A DNA stretch of 43,190 nucleotides. Origin: a virus. Position numbers and translations under genes: made by a program. Where the stretch lies: the IMG/VR virus record IMGVR_UViG_3300005748_000092, positions 1 to 43,190 of that record. One strand, written 5' to 3'. Positions 10,834 through 31,037 of the stretch are shown one piece after another. The notes under the pieces are model-generated. The model searched no databases. It had not been told where the DNA came from and saw only the letters and a program-made list of their open reading frames with translations. Position 1 is the stretch's first letter; the number at the start of each line of letters is the position of its first letter.

Positions 10834-11367
10834 ATGGAAGAAATAAAAGGGTTTGTCGGTTATTACATTGATAAAAATGCCAATGTTTATAGTAGACGTC
10901 CAAAAAATGGAATAGGGGGGCTTGTTGAGCCTAGGTTAATAAAGCAGCAAAAAATGAATAACGGATATATTATGGTTGGGTTATCGTCCGGAAAAAAAGG
11001 AAAACCAGTATATAAATCCGTTCACAGGTTAATGGCGATATGTTTTTTGCCAAACCCAGAAAACAAAAAAGAGGTAAACCATAAAAACGGAATAAAACAC
11101 GACAACAGACTTGAAAACCTTGAGTGGGTCACAAGATCAGAAAATATTAAACACGCTTTTGAAATGGGGTTAATTGTTCCAAACCCTCCTAAACCTAGAT
11201 ATGGAAAAGACAATCACAATTCTAAATTAAGCAATCAAAAAGCAATAGAAATAAGAATTTTATATGAAAAAGGGAACATTTCACAAAGGGCTTTAGCAAA
11301 AAAGTATAACGTAAAACAATCAACAATATGGAGTATTTTAAAAAAATTATCTTGGCAGGATGCATAA
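10834..11367 (+). CDS. HNH homing endonuclease with C-terminal HTH
   Basis: 177 residues. The HNH core lies at about 67-107: VHRLMAICFLPNP, then the signature EVNHKNGIKHDNRLENLEW. The C-terminal 45 residues carry a helix-turn-helix (ISQRALAKKYNV) that would give DNA specificity. It is a free-standing mobile gene inserted between two lysis-region genes, and its 3' end overlaps the next gene by 40 bases. Its core is nearly identical to that of the gene at 18857, so the two are recent relatives. It nicks or cuts DNA to spread itself and is not needed for lysis. Confidence 0.85.
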   Translation: MEEIKGFVGYYIDKNANVYSRRPKNGIGGLVEPRLIKQQKMNNGYIMVGLSSGKKGKPVYKSVHRLMAICFLPNPENKKEVNHKNGIKHDNRLENLEWVTRSENIKHAFEMGLIVPNPPKPRYGKDNHNSKLSNQKAIEIRILYEKGNISQRALAKKYNVKQSTIWSILKKLSWQDA

Positions 11368-11767: not shown

Positions 11768-11798
11768 GGGGTTCACTTCCAACGTGAGCCCTTTTTTT
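11768..11798 (+). terminator. Intrinsic terminator of the late transcript
   Basis: GGGTTCAC pairs with GTGAGCCC (8 bp with one T-G wobble) around a 7-8 base loop and is followed by seven T. A second small hairpin, GAATGA/TCATTC, lies just upstream at about 11741-11762. It ends the tail and lysis transcription unit and insulates it from the early promoter 40 bases further on. Confidence 0.85.
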
Positions 11799-11812
11799 GT
11801 GCTTATTTCTTT

Positions 11813-11874
11813 ATTTAGAATGATTCTAAATTATAACCTTTTTGCAATTGGTATTAATATTTGTTATATATTTA
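11813..11874 (+). promoter_or_regulatory. Operator plus early promoter, copy A
   Basis: A perfect 19-bp palindrome ATTTAGAATGATTCTAAAT lies at 11813-11831. After 10 bp comes TTG (11842-11844, -33 box), then 22 bp, then TATATTTA (11867-11874, -7 box). The -33 and -7 boxes fit the Flavobacterium/Bacteroides promoter pattern. The gene at 11900 starts about 25 bases after the -7 box. The same module with identical spacing recurs at 17126, 19712 and 23414. The palindrome is probably an operator for a phage regulator. The approximately 215-base gap from 11685 to 11899 holds only this and the terminator. Confidence 0.75.
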
Positions 11875-17094: not shown

Positions 17095-17125
17095 AGTTAT
17101 GAACTGTTTTAATGGTTCGTTTGTT

Positions 17126-17187
17126 ATTTAGAATGATTCTAAATTAAAACAAAATTGCAACTGATATAAATAAAAGCATTATATTTG
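17126..17187 (+). promoter_or_regulatory. Operator plus early promoter, copy B
   Basis: The 19-bp palindrome (17126-17144) is identical to copy A. It is followed after 10 bp by TTG (17155-17157), then 22 bp, then TATATTTG (17180-17187), a perfect -7 box. The gene at 17208 starts 20 bases later. This copy has the best promoter match of the four. Confidence 0.8.
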
Positions 17188-18856: not shown

Positions 18857-19396
18857 ATGGAAAAAGAAATATGGAGAAAAGCTAAAGGTGTTGAAGATAG
18901 ATATGAAGTTTCAAATATGGGGAATATTAGAAGTGTTTCACGTTATGTAAAAACATATTATGGAGAAAGGTTGGTTAGATCAAAAAATATAAAACCATTC
19001 AGTAATGGAAGAGGTTATATGTGTGTTTGTTACAGTAGTAAGCCCAGAAAAAATAAATATATTCATAGACTTGTTTCTGAAACATTTATCCCTAACCCAA
19101 AAAATAAAAAAGAAGTTAATCATAAAAACGGAATAAAATCAGATAACAGGGTTGAAAATTTAGAATGGGCTACAAGACAAGATAATATTAATCACTCAAA
19201 ACAGAGTGGTTTCGTTAAAAAAGGAGAAGCGCATTCAAACTCTAAATTAAACAGTCATCAAGTGGCTATGATACTTAGGCTTAACAGAATTAATCCTAAA
19301 TTTAATAGGAGTAAAGCTGGAAGAAAGTTTGGCGTACGCGAAGGAGCAATAATTAAAATTATAAAAAGGAAAGCTTGGAAGCACATAGAAATTTAA
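18857..19396 (+). CDS. HNH homing endonuclease (NUMOD4-HNH)
   Basis: 179 residues. NUMOD4-like start (EIWRKAKGVEDRYEVSNMGN), a beta part, then HNH: YIHRLVSETFIPNP and EVNHKNGIKSDNRVENLEWATR, and a C-terminal HTH near 130-175. The core matches the gene at 10834 almost word for word. It is inserted 4 bases after the NinG-like gene, and its 3' end overlaps the RusA-like frame by 22 bases. It is a mobile gene, not part of the recombination pathway. Confidence 0.85.
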   Translation: MEKEIWRKAKGVEDRYEVSNMGNIRSVSRYVKTYYGERLVRSKNIKPFSNGRGYMCVCYSSKPRKNKYIHRLVSETFIPNPKNKKEVNHKNGIKSDNRVENLEWATRQDNINHSKQSGFVKKGEAHSNSKLNSHQVAMILRLNRINPKFNRSKAGRKFGVREGAIIKIIKRKAWKHIEI

Positions 19397-20793: not shown

Positions 20794-21134
20794 AAGCAAT
20801 ATATTTCCCAACAGCAAACAAGGTATTTCGAGAAGGCACACCAGACGAATTTTTTATACATGAAACACCAGACGGTGATACAATTTGTTGTTTCGAATTA
20901 TCGAAAGAAGAAATTGAAGAAATACAAAAAACTGGCCGTATTTGGTTAACCAGGCACACGCTCGGAAAAGTACCAAATCCAATTTATCCATATATTGACA
21001 ATCCATTTGAAAATAAATTTGTTGAATGCGGGTGCGGAAACCTAGATTTTGAAGATGAATCAGCGGTTGATACTGACGGCAAATACACATGTTCAAGATG
21101 TATTGAAAAACTAACTAAAAAACAAACGAAATGA
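20790..21134 (+). CDS. Small zinc-ribbon-like protein
   Basis: 114 residues. The C-terminal part has ECGCGN followed 18 residues later by CSRC, a likely zinc ribbon; the N-terminal half is beta-rich. The protein at 24289 shows a similar ribbon. It overlaps genes on both sides, the next one being an HNH gene. Function unknown. Confidence 0.5.
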   Translation: MKAIYFPTANKVFREGTPDEFFIHETPDGDTICCFELSKEEIEEIQKTGRIWLTRHTLGKVPNPIYPYIDNPFENKFVECGCGNLDFEDESAVDTDGKYTCSRCIEKLTKKQTK

Positions 21135-21751
21135 ATCAGAAATACATAGTAAAGTGCAAAAAGGAAAAAGAGGTATGGAGAGATATTCCAGGCTATGAGG
21201 GTTTATATAAGATAAGTGATTTGAGCACTATAAAAAGCTTAGATAGGATAACTATTAAAAGTAATGGTGTTACTCAAAAGAATAAAGGGATTATTTTAAA
21301 TCAGTACAACACTAAAAATATGCCATACTATGTTGTTAGTCTTTCTAAGAATGGAAAAGTTAAACCTTTTGACGTTCATAAATTAATGGCTATTTCTTTT
21401 ATGAATCATCCACTTAAAGGAAGTAAAAAGGTTATTGACCACATAAATAAAAATAAATTAGATAACAGACTGGTGAATCTACAGATAATAACCAATAGAC
21501 AAAACACTGTAAAAGGTTTAATTTGTGAAAACAATAAAGTTGACTCTGTAGGTGTTAAAATGGTTGGCAGAAAATTTATTTCATCAATAAGACCAACAGG
21601 ACAAAGACAAATTAGATTAGGAAGCTTTTCGACTGAAAAAGATGCGTCTAACACATATCAAATAGCTTTACGGAAAATACTGTCAAATGAAGATTTTTGT
21701 ATTAAATCAGAAATGACAAATAAGGAATGGGTAGAATATTTATTAAAATAA
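21131..21751 (+). CDS. HNH homing endonuclease with AP2-like domain
   Basis: 206 residues: NUMOD4-like EVWRDIPGYEGLYKISDLS near 14-32, HNH with VHKLMAISF and VIDHINKNKLDNRLVNLQII near 80-120, then an AP2-like DNA-binding domain (FISSIRPTGQRQIRLGSFST) near 150-170. The first nine residues (MNQKYIVKC) resemble the start of the next gene (MERYLVKC), as if the element had taken the 5' end of the gene it landed in. It is mobile and the most divergent of the three NUMOD4-type HNH genes. Confidence 0.85.
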   Translation: MNQKYIVKCKKEKEVWRDIPGYEGLYKISDLSTIKSLDRITIKSNGVTQKNKGIILNQYNTKNMPYYVVSLSKNGKVKPFDVHKLMAISFMNHPLKGSKKVIDHINKNKLDNRLVNLQIITNRQNTVKGLICENNKVDSVGVKMVGRKFISSIRPTGQRQIRLGSFSTEKDASNTYQIALRKILSNEDFCIKSEMTNKEWVEYLLK

Positions 21752-22679: not shown

Positions 22680-22844
22680 ATGAGTGAAAGCAAAGCACTA
22701 GAAAAACTAAAGTCAGCATCAAGCAAGCTGCAAGCAATGATTAAGCAAAACGACAACGCAATTAACGAGCTCAGACCAATTGCTAATCAATTAGGATATG
22801 ACATAAACCCAAACACGGGGGAACTAATCAAAATACTAGGATAA
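22680..22844 (+). CDS. Small coiled-coil protein before terS
   Basis: 54 residues, helical (SKALEKLKSASSKLQAMIKQ) with a Gly/Asn-rich end. I chose the ATG at 22680 over an earlier in-frame start that would lie inside the terminator hairpin. It shares one base with the next start (TAATG), so it is probably co-translated with the small terminase gene. Confidence 0.55.
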   Translation: MSESKALEKLKSASSKLQAMIKQNDNAINELRPIANQLGYDINPNTGELIKILG

Positions 22845-23353
22845 TGCCAGCACCAAAAGGAAATCAATTTGCATTAGGCAATAAAGGAAGATCAAAAAAG
22901 TGGAAAACTGTTGAAGAACTTCAAACAGACATTGACGCATACTTTGGGTGGTGTGAAGAAACACCTATTAAACAATACCACACTAGCCAAATAGACCCAA
23001 CAACAAAAAAACCACTTATTTACAACGTACCAAGACCGTACACAATAGAAGGTTTATGTACATTCCTAGAGTGTGACAGAGATACTTTATTAAACTATGA
23101 AAAAGAGGTAGGATATGAAGAGTATTTCGGCGCAATAAAGAAAGCAAAGAACAAAATCCAGCAAAATAAGGTCGAAATGGCGCTATCTGGAAACGCTGTT
23201 GCATCCGTTAGTATCTTTGATTTAAAGAACAATCACGGCTATAAAGATAAGCAAGAGCATGACGTTAACGCGAAGGTTGATTCGTACAACGTTACCCCAG
23301 AAGAACGTGCCGCAAGAATCGCTGAATTAAGCAAGAAACTAAATAAAAAATAA
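22844..23353 (+). CDS. terS: Terminase small subunit
   Basis: 169 residues. It starts with a basic APKGNQFALGNKGRSKKW, typical of terminase small subunits. Next come PRPYTIEGLCTFLECDRDTLLNYEK (HTH-like, near 64-88) and AIKKAKNKIQQNKVEMALSG, then SIFDLKNNHGYKDKQE near 125-140, the region shared by P22 gp3-like packaging proteins. It recognises the packaging site on phage DNA and forms a ring that hands it to the large subunit. Here it lies 3.5 kb upstream of the large subunit, which is unusual. Confidence 0.75.
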   Translation: MPAPKGNQFALGNKGRSKKWKTVEELQTDIDAYFGWCEETPIKQYHTSQIDPTTKKPLIYNVPRPYTIEGLCTFLECDRDTLLNYEKEVGYEEYFGAIKKAKNKIQQNKVEMALSGNAVASVSIFDLKNNHGYKDKQEHDVNAKVDSYNVTPEERAARIAELSKKLNKK

Positions 23354-23413
23354 AATCGTTCTAAAAATAGGCTAAATTCTGTCTTGGACATACTGGCACT
23401 AAGGATTGCGCTT

Positions 23414-23475
23414 ATTTAGAATTGTTCTAAATTACTATTTTATTGCAATTAGTATAAATATTTGTATTACATTAG
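23414..23475 (+). promoter_or_regulatory. Operator plus early promoter, copy C
   Basis: Palindrome ATTTAGAA TTG TTCTAAAT (23414-23432), 10 bp, TTG (23443-23445), 22 bp, then TACATTAG (23468-23475), a slightly weaker -7 box. A lone half-site-like GTTCTAAAAA lies about 60 bases upstream, near 23359. The transcript would begin just before the 51-residue membrane protein gene. The 140 bases between terS and that gene hold nothing else that I see. Confidence 0.75.
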
Positions 23476-26596: not shown

Positions 26597-26867
26597 GGAG
26601 GAAACCTTAATTAATTGGCTTGATGGGGGCGGTATTAATGGGGGGTTATACATTGATTGCGACAATATGGATTTTATAATTGATTGTGTAAATGAGTTAT
26701 ATGTAACAGACAGGCGAGAACTAGTAAGAAACAAAGCAAACGCGCGAATCAATAGAAAGACACGTTTAGTTGTCACTAAGTGTTTACGTTTAGGATTACA
26801 CCCGATAATGCAATTAAAAAGGCTGCAACCAATTCAACAAACTTTAGTTTTCGGAGTTTCTGATTAA
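26586..26867 (+). CDS. Small protein upstream of the large terminase
   Basis: 93 residues from the ATG at 26586; a GTG at 26550 would overlap the lipoprotein gene further. The N-terminal half is acidic with a Gly-rich GGGINGG; the C-terminal half is basic (RINRKTRLVVTK), so it may bind DNA. It shares one base with the terL start (TAATG), which suggests translational coupling. The family is not recognised. Confidence 0.45.
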   Translation: MPTREETLINWLDGGGINGGLYIDCDNMDFIIDCVNELYVTDRRELVRNKANARINRKTRLVVTKCLRLGLHPIMQLKRLQPIQQTLVFGVSD

Positions 26868-29323
26868 TGAATTTAACGGATGACGAAATATTAGAGCTTG
26901 AAAGATTAATTCATGAGCAAGAAGTTTATGAATCGCGTGAAAGCCTAATTGAGTTTGCAAAAAAAATGATGCCTGGTTTTGATGAAACGCAATTCCACAA
27001 AACGTATTATCATATTTTATTACTATTTGCAAAAGGATTAATCAAGCGTTTAATGGTTACAATCCCCCCGCAAACTGGAAAAGCTGTTCAAGTAGACACT
27101 CCAGTTTTAACAACTGATGGTTGGGTGAATCATGGTGATTTAAAACCAGGTATGTTTGTTTATGGAGAAGGTGGCAAAAAAGTAAAGGTTTTAGAGGTGC
27201 ATAAAAAATCATTAGTTGAATCTTCAAAAGTTCATATTGCTGGGTACAATCCTATAATTGCATCAAACAATCATGAATGGGTTGTTTTATGTGATCGTGA
27301 AAAGTACAGAAATCGCAACGCTTCAGGAACAAAAAGAGTTAAAGAAAAACTAGAAACTAGCCAATTATTGTTAGGTCAAAGACGAAATCCAGCTATCCAG
27401 TCAGACAATGTAATTGAAGGGGAACATAAAGAGTTGCCGATCGACCCATATATTTTAGGTTGCTGGTTGGGTGATGGAAACTCAGAGGGGGGCCGTTTAA
27501 CGTGTGGTGTTCAAGATATTGACCATTTTAAAAAGTTTGGGAGTTATCGAGAGGTAAAACCAGGTATTTACAATATTAGAATTGAAGGATTAACAAAAAC
27601 TTTAAGACTAAATAATTTACAATACAACAAACACATACCAAAAGACTATTTATTTTCTAGTGTTGAGCAAAGACTAGAGCTGTTGCGTGGGTTAATGGAT
27701 ACAGATGGATGCATTGACACTAGACATAGATGTGAGTTCACTCAAAAAACGGGGCAATTATCAATTGATTTTTATCAATTAGTAAGAAGTTTAGGAATAA
27801 AAGCAACATTCAATACTTACGTTGCTAAAATCTACGGAGCAGATAAAGGATTTAAAGATAGAATTACTTTTAGTAGACCAGTTTATGAGGTGTTTAAACT
27901 AAAAAGAAAACTAGAAAGACAGCGATTTGATGGGCGAAAAGATGGAGATAGATTTTTTATTGATAAAGTTGAACCGATAGGAAAACGATTAGTTAATTGC
28001 ATTACTGTTGAAGGCGGTTTGTATTTAGTTGGTAAAGATTTAGTGTTAACCCATAACTCTACCGGATCAACTATTATGCTGCCATCGTTCCTTTTTGGAA
28101 TTGACCCGAATAAGAAGATTGCAGTGGGTAGTTATTCAACAACTTTTGCGCGTAAATTTAATAGAGAAATTCAAAGAGTCATAGATACACCCCAATATCA
28201 TGAAATATTTCCAGAAACAACATTAAACGCCTCAAATGTTGTAACAATCTCCAGTTCTTATTTAAGAAACTCAGAAGAATTTGAAATCGTAGGATATAAA
28301 GGCAGTTTAAAAGCAGTTGGAAGGGGTGGGCCATTAACGGGAAACCCGGTTGACATTATGATAATGGATGACTTATACAAAGACGCAAGCGAAGGGAACA
28401 GCCCAGTAATAAGGGAAGGCGTTTGGGATTGGTATAGCTCAGTAGTTCAAAAGAGGTTGCACAACAAAAGCCAGGAATTAATCGTTTTTACCCGTTGGCA
28501 TCAAGACGATTTGATTGGATTACTAGAAAAAAAAGATAAGGTAGTTTTGATTGAATCAATTGACGATATTGAAGCACTAGGCCCAGATTTTGACGGATGG
28601 ATTAAAATAAATTTTGAAGCGATAAAAGAAAGTGAACCGACTCCAATTGACCCACGCCAAAAAGGAGAAGCACTTTACCCAGAACGCCAAGGTTTAAAGA
28701 AGCTGTTAAAAGAACGTGAGCAAGACCCAGAAAAATTCAACTGCATGAATCAAGGCAATCCGATTTCACAGGAGGGATTAATGTATAAACCTTTTGGATC
28801 GTATGTAGAATTGCCACAAATCAAGATCAAAAAATCTTATGTAGATACTGCCGACAAAGGGACGGATTATTTATGCGCTGTACATTATGCGGTGCCACTA
28901 GACGCAAATGACGATAGGCGCTTTGTTTTAGATGTTGTTTATAGCCAAGAGGCAATGGAAACAACCGAACCGTTATTGGCTAAATCTTTAGATAATAATC
29001 AAATTGACGAATGTATTGTTGAGTCAAACAACGGGGGTCGAGGGTTTGCAAGGGCTGTTGAGCAAATAGTAAACGGCAAAACAGAAATAAGTTGGAAACA
29101 TCAAAGTAAAAATAAAGAGGCTAGGATTGTATCAAATAGCGCAACAGTAAACAGAAGAATTGTATTTCCTGAAGGTTGGGAAAAGCGCTGGCCTACATTT
29201 TATGAGCATCTAAGATTTTACAAAAAACTATTTAACGCAAACAAGCAAGATGGAATCCCAGATGTGTTAACAGGGATAGTTGAGCAAGATGTTGAAGGGT
29301 CGTCAACTGAAATTTATTGGTAA
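26867..29323 (+). CDS. terL: Large terminase subunit precursor with intein
   Basis: 818 residues. Exteins 1-72 and 398-818 join into a 493-residue terminase. P-loop PPQTGK then STG is split between Lys72 and Ser398; Walker B is IMIMDD (497-502); the coupling motif is TRWHQDDL (542-549). The nuclease acids fit Asp660 (YVDTAD), Glu719 (VESNNGG) and Asp799 (DGIPDVL). The ATPase drives DNA into the prohead and the nuclease cuts the ends. Splicing is needed for activity because the intein breaks the ATP-binding loop. It starts at the stop of the preceding gene. Confidence 0.85.
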   Translation: MNLTDDEILELERLIHEQEVYESRESLIEFAKKMMPGFDETQFHKTYYHILLLFAKGLIKRLMVTIPPQTGKAVQVDTPVLTTDGWVNHGDLKPGMFVYGEGGKKVKVLEVHKKSLVESSKVHIAGYNPIIASNNHEWVVLCDREKYRNRNASGTKRVKEKLETSQLLLGQRRNPAIQSDNVIEGEHKELPIDPYILGCWLGDGNSEGGRLTCGVQDIDHFKKFGSYREVKPGIYNIRIEGLTKTLRLNNLQYNKHIPKDYLFSSVEQRLELLRGLMDTDGCIDTRHRCEFTQKTGQLSIDFYQLVRSLGIKATFNTYVAKIYGADKGFKDRITFSRPVYEVFKLKRKLERQRFDGRKDGDRFFIDKVEPIGKRLVNCITVEGGLYLVGKDLVLTHNSTGSTIMLPSFLFGIDPNKKIAVGSYSTTFARKFNREIQRVIDTPQYHEIFPETTLNASNVVTISSSYLRNSEEFEIVGYKGSLKAVGRGGPLTGNPVDIMIMDDLYKDASEGNSPVIREGVWDWYSSVVQKRLHNKSQELIVFTRWHQDDLIGLLEKKDKVVLIESIDDIEALGPDFDGWIKINFEAIKESEPTPIDPRQKGEALYPERQGLKKLLKEREQDPEKFNCMNQGNPISQEGLMYKPFGSYVELPQIKIKKSYVDTADKGTDYLCAVHYAVPLDANDDRRFVLDVVYSQEAMETTEPLLAKSLDNNQIDECIVESNNGGRGFARAVEQIVNGKTEISWKHQSKNKEARIVSNSATVNRRIVFPEGWEKRWPTFYEHLRFYKKLFNANKQDGIPDVLTGIVEQDVEGSSTEIYW
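27083..28057 (+). mobile_element. Class 3 intein with LAGLIDADG endonuclease in terL
   Basis: 325 residues (73-397 of the precursor), in frame. It starts with Ala, not Cys or Ser, and ends VLTHN followed by Ser398. The class 3 signature is visible: Trp138 two residues after block B His136 (NHEW), Cys378 in block F (VNCITVEG, in place of the usual Asp), Thr395 before His396-Asn397. A DOD homing endonuclease is inserted, with LGCWLGDG (197-204) and LRGLMDTDG (273-281); both Asp are kept, so it may be active. The branch nucleophile should be Cys378. Confidence 0.85.
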
Positions 29324-29347
29324 TTACCCTTATACAAAAAAAAATTG

Positions 29348-29355
29348 TACTTTTG
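29348..29355 (+). promoter_or_regulatory. Possible -7 box before the portal gene
   Basis: TACTTTTG fits TAnnTTTG, 17 bases before the portal ATG, in the 49-base gap after terL. No TTG lies at 17-23 bp upstream, so support is limited to the -7 box. Confidence 0.3.
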
Positions 29356-29372
29356 TTATTATATCTCTAGTT

Positions 29373-31037
29373 ATGATTTTTGAAAGTGATGAACAAGCAA
29401 TAAAATACATTAGAGCGAATCAAAGTGTTTCGCCTTATATTGAAAAAGCCCGAAATGAGGCTAGAGAATTGTTTGCACTTGTTGAGGGGGACGGGTTCAA
29501 AGACGAACTAATTAAACGGATTGAACACATTGAAGGCACAAAAAAGGCAATTGCCAGAAAGAAGTACAGTCGATCAATTGTAGACCTTTACCAAAGAATT
29601 TCACAGCCAATTTCAAACGTATTTAGCGCAACAGGTGGAAGCGCCGAATATAATATTGACAACGAAGACAAGAAAAAAGAGTTTCTTTTGAAGATTGGAA
29701 ACATTCGAGACAACAAAAGCATTAAACAATATGCTGAGGACGTTTGGATGCCTTTATACCATACAGACCCGAATGGAGTTGTTTTCATGGAGTACACAAC
29801 AGAGGCCAAACATGGTAAAAATGACGTTTATCCAACATACAAAAGTATTAATAAAATACGTTCTTACATTCCAGAAGGGCAAAATTTAAGTGCTATCTTA
29901 TTTGAACCAAAACATGAAAGGTTTTTAGAAAGCTCAGAAGAAACACAATTAGTTTGGCGTTTGGTTGACGATAAAAAAGACTATACATTTATTCAAAGGG
30001 GTGACGCTTTTATTCTAGATGAAGTCAGAACATTTGAGCACCCGTTTGGAAAGGTGCCAGGGATAATAAACAGTGATATTATCAAAATAGGTTCTGTTGA
30101 ATTCAGATTAAGCCCTTATCATAAGATAAAAGAGTTAACGAGAGAATACGCCCGTGACCAATCTATCAAAACAATTTATAAATTTTTACAGGGGTTCCCG
30201 ATTCATTGGCGTTATGTTACTCAGTGTAAGCCATGCCAAGGAACAGGGAAAGAAGGTAACGGTAAATGCAAGGTTTGTGATGGAAAAGGGATTTATCAAA
30301 GCAAAGATGTTACCGATCAGGTAAATATTACAATGCCAAAATCAAAAGATGATGTAATTGTTGCTCCAGATATTACGGGTTTTATATCGCCTGACCTTGA
30401 AACATGGAAAAGATATGATGAAGAAAACGCATTGTTAGAATTTCTTTCAATGGGAACACATTGGGGATCACATAAAGAGAAGTCACAGGACATGACCGCC
30501 ACAGAGGTTTGGATTGACGTTCAACCTGTTACAAATAAGCTTTGCAAGTACGCAAGAACAACAGAATATTTTATTAATTGGATGTCAAACATGGTTTACG
30601 CGTACCAGAACCCAGGAGCGGCAAAACCAGTTTCAAATTACAATCTAGGAAAGCGGTATATTATAGAAAGCCCAGACGTAATTTTAGAGAAGTACCAGAA
30701 ATCAAAAGAAAAAGGTGACGCCATAACAATACTTGACAGATTATACAATGAGTATTTGACAAGCAAATATGAAAACGATCCAGAATGGTTAAGATTTGAA
30801 TTGCTTAAATCAGAGGTTGAACCATATTTGCATTATACACTTGAAGAAATTTCTACTATTTTTGGTCAAAAAGAAGCCATGAGAAAAGCTTTGTTTGTTG
30901 ATTGGTGGCAAATTATCACGAATGAAGAAAAGCTAATTAATGACGGCGTTAAATTACGTAAAATGTTTGACGCTTGGATTGAACAACAAAACTTATCTAT
31001 TGCAGAAAGTACTCCGGAGGTTCCGGATGAAATATAA
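29373..31037 (+). CDS. Portal protein with a DnaJ-like zinc motif
   Basis: 554 residues directly after terL, the standard place for the portal. I chose the ATG at 29373 (MIFESDEQ), since the earlier in-frame start overlaps terL by 44 bases. The charged N-terminus, the central Tyr/Trp-rich body and the final helices (LGKRYIIESPDVILEKYQ) fit phage portals, which form the 12-part ring through which DNA passes. Odd: Cys285, Cys288, Cys299 and Cys302 (CKPCQGTG, CKVCDGKG) form a DnaJ-type zinc finger not present in most portals. Confidence 0.65.
   Translation: MIFESDEQAIKYIRANQSVSPYIEKARNEARELFALVEGDGFKDELIKRIEHIEGTKKAIARKKYSRSIVDLYQRISQPISNVFSATGGSAEYNIDNEDKKKEFLLKIGNIRDNKSIKQYAEDVWMPLYHTDPNGVVFMEYTTEAKHGKNDVYPTYKSINKIRSYIPEGQNLSAILFEPKHERFLESSEETQLVWRLVDDKKDYTFIQRGDAFILDEVRTFEHPFGKVPGIINSDIIKIGSVEFRLSPYHKIKELTREYARDQSIKTIYKFLQGFPIHWRYVTQCKPCQGTGKEGNGKCKVCDGKGIYQSKDVTDQVNITMPKSKDDVIVAPDITGFISPDLETWKRYDEENALLEFLSMGTHWGSHKEKSQDMTATEVWIDVQPVTNKLCKYARTTEYFINWMSNMVYAYQNPGAAKPVSNYNLGKRYIIESPDVILEKYQKSKEKGDAITILDRLYNEYLTSKYENDPEWLRFELLKSEVEPYLHYTLEEISTIFGQKEAMRKALFVDWWQIITNEEKLINDGVKLRKMFDAWIEQQNLSIAESTPEVPDEI

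Follow-up and report, generated by a model that had tools for sequence, protein, structure and literature searches.

K/T-type inteins in the P-loop of phage terminases have already been published for mycobacteriophages (PMC5050341; the slash marks the insertion junction). TerL1-a and TerL1-b (NelitzaMV, L042, and Baka, L034) lie in the Walker A motif of the large terminase (TerL), TerL1-a between its Lys and Thr, and experiments have shown both splicing and cleavage of intein-free terL DNA for the terminase inteins of the Mycobacterium phages Baka and Bethlehem (PMC5050341). Crass-like phages of Bacteroidota often carry TerL inteins, one example being of the Hint-Hop type (PMC7886860). Class 3 inteins are defined by Trp at block B position 12 (B:12), Cys at F:4, Thr at G:5 and Ser or Thr at +1, the nucleophile at residue 1 being dispensable; class 2 inteins are described in the same work (PMC5222942).

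Here we analyse the terL intein of a virus record without a host entry (IMGVR_UViG_3300005748_000092; 43,190 nucleotides, referred to as the window). In the NelitzaMV and Baka inteins, W, C, T and LAGLIDADG follow one another as they do in the window intein, but the two inteins are ~31-34% identical to it and occur in a different terminase family and in different hosts; the +1 residue is Thr in NelitzaMV and Ser in the window. The TerL intein of Porphyromonas phage005b (PP754928, L030) shares with the window intein the GK/S junction, W-C-T and LAGLIDADG, and its TerL is of the same family (48% C-extein identity), but the intein begins with Gln, is 31-34% identical and belongs to a separate lineage. 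An intein in IMG/VR contig 3300028797_001085 (L046) shares TerL family and junction and is 45-47% identical, although the C-extein is merely 42% identical. The class 3 DnaB inteins of Mycobacterium chimaera (6rix) and M. smegmatis (6bs8) have the Hint fold and W-C-T in register, but they lack an endonuclease and reside in a bacterial replicative helicase. PI-SceI, the yeast VMA intein, has the same overall two-domain fold and two LAGLIDADG motifs, but is a class 1 intein (Cys1) with an additional DNA-recognition region.

Insertion in the P-loop of TerL

The terL gene of the window is a single open frame of 818 codons (26867-29323) with no break. Terminase sequence makes up residues 1-72 and 398-818, flanking a 325-residue insert (residues 73-397), and the C-extein matches TIGR01630 (1.4e-15) and PF22530 in a family profile search. 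Viral contigs, phage records and bacterial genomes supplied TerL homologues, and tblastn was used to place the N- and C-extein in each of them. The site is empty in 166 homologous TerLs, where GK directly abuts the start of the C-extein, nearly always as PPQHGK/S; the gap between the extein halves is 0 nt in the intein-free TerLs checked for both. Because these homologues read GK followed by S or T without a gap, the insert can be placed exactly between the P-loop Lys72 and Ser398 (PPQTGK/STGS), running from Ala1 (GCT, 27083-27085) to Asn325 (AAC, 28055-28057) and followed by Ser (TCT, 28058-28060; Table 1). A sequence-only reading of this DNA had proposed an intein that starts with Ala, ends with His-Asn before Ser and sits between Lys and Ser of the P-loop, and had suggested a search for terL alleles without it. 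The 166 empty sites bear out that position, and the coordinates and residue numbers given there proved exact.

The Walker A motif would therefore be broken in unspliced TerL, and a precursor that still carries the intein would presumably be inactive. Among 169 related TerLs the junction is occupied in three, namely the window, Porphyromonas phage005b and L046.

Table 1 Features of the terL gene and its intein in the window (numbered from intein residue 1 unless TerL is stated)
Feature	Position	Strand	Basis
N-extein of TerL, residues 1-72, ends PPQTGK (Walker A)	26867..27082	+	extein location, alignment
Predicted class 3 intein, 325 aa	27083..28057	+	empty-site alignment, family alignment
His64, block B:10 (TerL His136)	27272..27274	+	family alignments
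Trp66, block B:12 (TerL Trp138), two after block B His64	27278..27280	+	family alignments, PDB profile
LAGLIDADG motif 1, PYILGCWLGDG, catalytic Asp131	27446..27478	+	alignments, PDB profile
LAGLIDADG motif 2, LLRGLMDTDG, catalytic Asp208	27680..27709	+	Pfam, alignments
Cys306, block F:4 (TerL Cys378), proposed first nucleophile	27998..28000	+	family alignments, PDB profile
Thr323-His324-Asn325, block G:5-7 (TerL Thr395-His396-Asn397)	28049..28057	+	family alignments, PDB profile
C-extein of TerL, Ser398 (+1) to stop codon	28058..29323	+	terminase family matches, empty-site alignment

Predicted fold and endonuclease domain

The AlphaFold model of the intein (pLDDT 93.9, pTM 0.90; alignment with 53 relatives) consists of a Hint domain and a two-motif LAGLIDADG endonuclease. 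Foldseek aligns the entire model with PI-SceI (4.7e-18, TMq 0.79), and its splicing domain with class 3 DnaB inteins (about 4e-5, TMt near 0.8). Asp131 and Asp208 align with the LAGLIDADG motifs of PI-SceI. In Pfam and NCBIfam, no Hint or intein model passes for the window intein and LAGLIDADG alone does, with PF14528 exceeding its cut-off.

The endonuclease had been described as apparently intact, and it still appears so: both motifs and both Asp residues are kept, the frame is open without stop or frameshift, and the two-domain model is confident. These features argue against an intein that splices competently but whose endonuclease is by now inactive, so that its inheritance is merely passive. 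The occupation of three of the 169 junctions and the 47% identity of the sister intein, which means that recent spread is not seen, would both suit such an element; we regard it as unlikely, though as the likeliest of the alternatives.

Class 3 splicing motifs

All the sequence features of class 3 are present in the window intein: Trp66, Cys306, Thr323, Ser398 at +1, and Ala1. Trp66, Cys306, Thr323, His64, His324 and Asn325 are invariant in an alignment of 14 sequences (the window and 13 inteins from phages and viral contigs), and in a larger set of related inteins His64, Trp66, Cys306, Thr323 and Asn325 are each found in 95 of 95. Recruitment to this larger set did not use the splicing motif, since ~80 of its members were retrieved with peptide patterns taken from the endonuclease domain and not from splicing blocks; full-length coverage was required. 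A point against the assignment is that block B of the window intein reads SNNH where TxxH is usual, although B:7 is highly variable among related inteins. By tblastn, the window intein matches other phage inteins with E values down to 2e-44. A profile of the 14 inteins searched against the PDB returns the class 3 DnaB inteins at the top (6rix, 2.1e-37; 6bs8, 6.5e-37), their W, C and T lined up with those of the profile. Together with the fold match to PI-SceI, these similarities are far too strong to have arisen by chance. The triad that had been read from the letters, Trp138, Cys378 and Thr395 of TerL at B:12, F:4 and G:5, is the invariant one, and alignment places Cys378 inside block F, in register with its 6rix counterpart.

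A class 1 mechanism through Cys1 or Ser1 is excluded, as residue 1 is Ala and the junction is fixed by the empty alleles. Ala at residue 1 also fits class 2 inteins; in that class, or in a degenerate intein of class 1, Ser at +1 would attack the N-terminal junction directly, the block F Cys being incidental. Against this stand the W-C-T residues at B:12, F:4 and G:5, all there and invariant in the 95 relatives, and the profile, which scores class 3 structures far above every other splicing domain (6rix 2e-37 versus 5e-13 for unmodified gp41-1); the class 2 assignment was rejected on the complete W-C-T triplet, and we hold this whole reading to be very improbable. That the insertion is splicing-dead, either in a terminase pseudogene or through an assembly joining two alleles, is scarcely credible, as no supporting evidence was found for it and it is opposed by the clean 818-codon frame, by the retention of every catalytic residue and by the role of TerL as the phage packaging motor, with the portal gene next downstream. 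Judged from its sequence and structural model, the window intein is very probably a mobile element of class 3, complete in length and lodged in the Walker A P-loop of the large terminase; we assign this reading a probability of about 0.93.

Proposed splicing and homing

In the window intein, splicing most likely proceeds via Cys306, and the element most likely homes into terL alleles that lack it. After translation, Cys306 (F:4), aided by His64, Trp66 and Thr323, would attack the Lys72-Ala73 peptide bond and take over the N-extein, forming a first branched intermediate. The N-extein acyl group would then pass to Ser398 (+1), giving a second branched intermediate, and cyclisation of Asn325 would release the intein. 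Conversion of the ester to a Lys-Ser peptide bond would restore the GKST sequence, and with it ATPase activity. The LAGLIDADG nuclease within the intein would cut the P-loop DNA of intein-free terL in co-infecting relatives, and repair after the cut would copy the intein into the empty allele.

The order of steps, the splicing proficiency, and the activity and target of the nuclease are inferred from studied relatives. Splicing and cutting activity are carried over from distant ones, because the nearest intein (L046) is only 47% identical; the results obtained directly on the intein cover where it sits and its exact junctions, its motif residues and homology, the fold predicted for it and its sporadic distribution.

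In M. smegmatis, splicing of the class 3 DnaB intein is reportedly redox or metal dependent. It is a long shot that splicing through the Cys306 thiol would likewise depend on redox state or metals and time the release of terminase by the state of the cell. If it did, DNA packaging would be timed by that state, and the intein would be more than a parasite.

Distribution and descent

A related intein was found in 747 of 50,697 phage records, the genes concerned being mostly annotated as terminase, helicase or endonuclease. A scan of viral contigs with the single intein protein found only two mycobacteriophages, and an alignment-based scan was needed to find more. In the set of 95 inteins, 68 have GK immediately before them and Ser or Thr immediately after. 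Three class 3-type inteins from viral contigs (L120, L125 and L090) have an apparent Cys or Ala at +1, with boundaries that were set automatically. The 395 sampled Bacteroidota genomes gave three intein matches only, one of which (L274) lies in DnaB, starts with Cys1 and lacks the block F Cys, which makes it class 1.

A tree built from 26 inteins places the window intein as sister to L046 (96/97), and in it the Porphyromonas phage005b intein groups with L063 and L118 (100/100), which are inserted at PPQHGK/S of other proteins. A common origin of the three same-site inteins, a group named before the tree was made, costs 50 log-likelihood units and is rejected by the AU test (p-AU 6.4e-5), on a tree with long branches; a quick tree of the 95 inteins splits them in the same way. 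Because common descent is rejected, at least two invasions are the simplest reading, and a single P-loop junction of one terminase family was probably entered at least twice by class 3 lineages.

The sequence-only reading had implied that such an intein is not known from a flavobacterial phage terminase. We likewise found no publication that reports a class 3 intein in the terminase of such a phage, within a partial coverage of the literature. The implied rarity does not extend to the kind of element: hundreds of phages have relatives, terminase P-loop inteins are published (PMC5050341), and phage005b is occupied at the same junction. The window intein is a new, well-supported example from a Bacteroidota-type phage terminase. 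These findings accord with the view that class 3 inteins reside chiefly in phages, and they raise no new question. In practical terms, the window offers an additional divergent class 3 splicing domain with natural intein-free alleles for homing tests.

Host and other features of the window

Relatives of the TerL come from Bacteroides, Elizabethkingia and Porphyromonas phages and from Alistipes, Vicingaceae and Mesonia genomes; by these sequence matches the TerL family is Bacteroidota-associated, and a flavobacterial host is plausible. The best matches of the portal protein (29280-31037) are in Rhodobacteraceae and Pseudanabaena phages, followed by Polaribacter phages. The portal also matches a CXXCXGXG-type zinc motif (a weak match to the DnaJ central domain). 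A small terminase-like gene (22844-23353; PF16677, phrog_606) is located upstream of terL at the unusual distance of about 3.5 kb, with many small genes between them.

An 83-nt element occurs in three intergenic copies (11791-11873, 17104-17186 and 23392-23474). Each contains a perfect or near-perfect palindrome, TTAGAATnATTCTAA, at 11815, 17128 and 23416, with Fur/PerR-like 7-1-7 spacing and followed by a TTG...TA..TTTG stretch that resembles Bacteroidota promoters. Matches to the palindrome family outnumber those in shuffled sequence (15 with <=2 mismatches versus 4.9 expected), and the element may serve three operons as a common operator-promoter.

Besides the intein, the phage is rich in homing-type endonucleases. 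Three freestanding genes are HNH endonuclease-like (10834-11367, 18857-19396 and 21131-21751), two of them with NUMOD4, and the first two share a 111-nt repeat with 78% identity.
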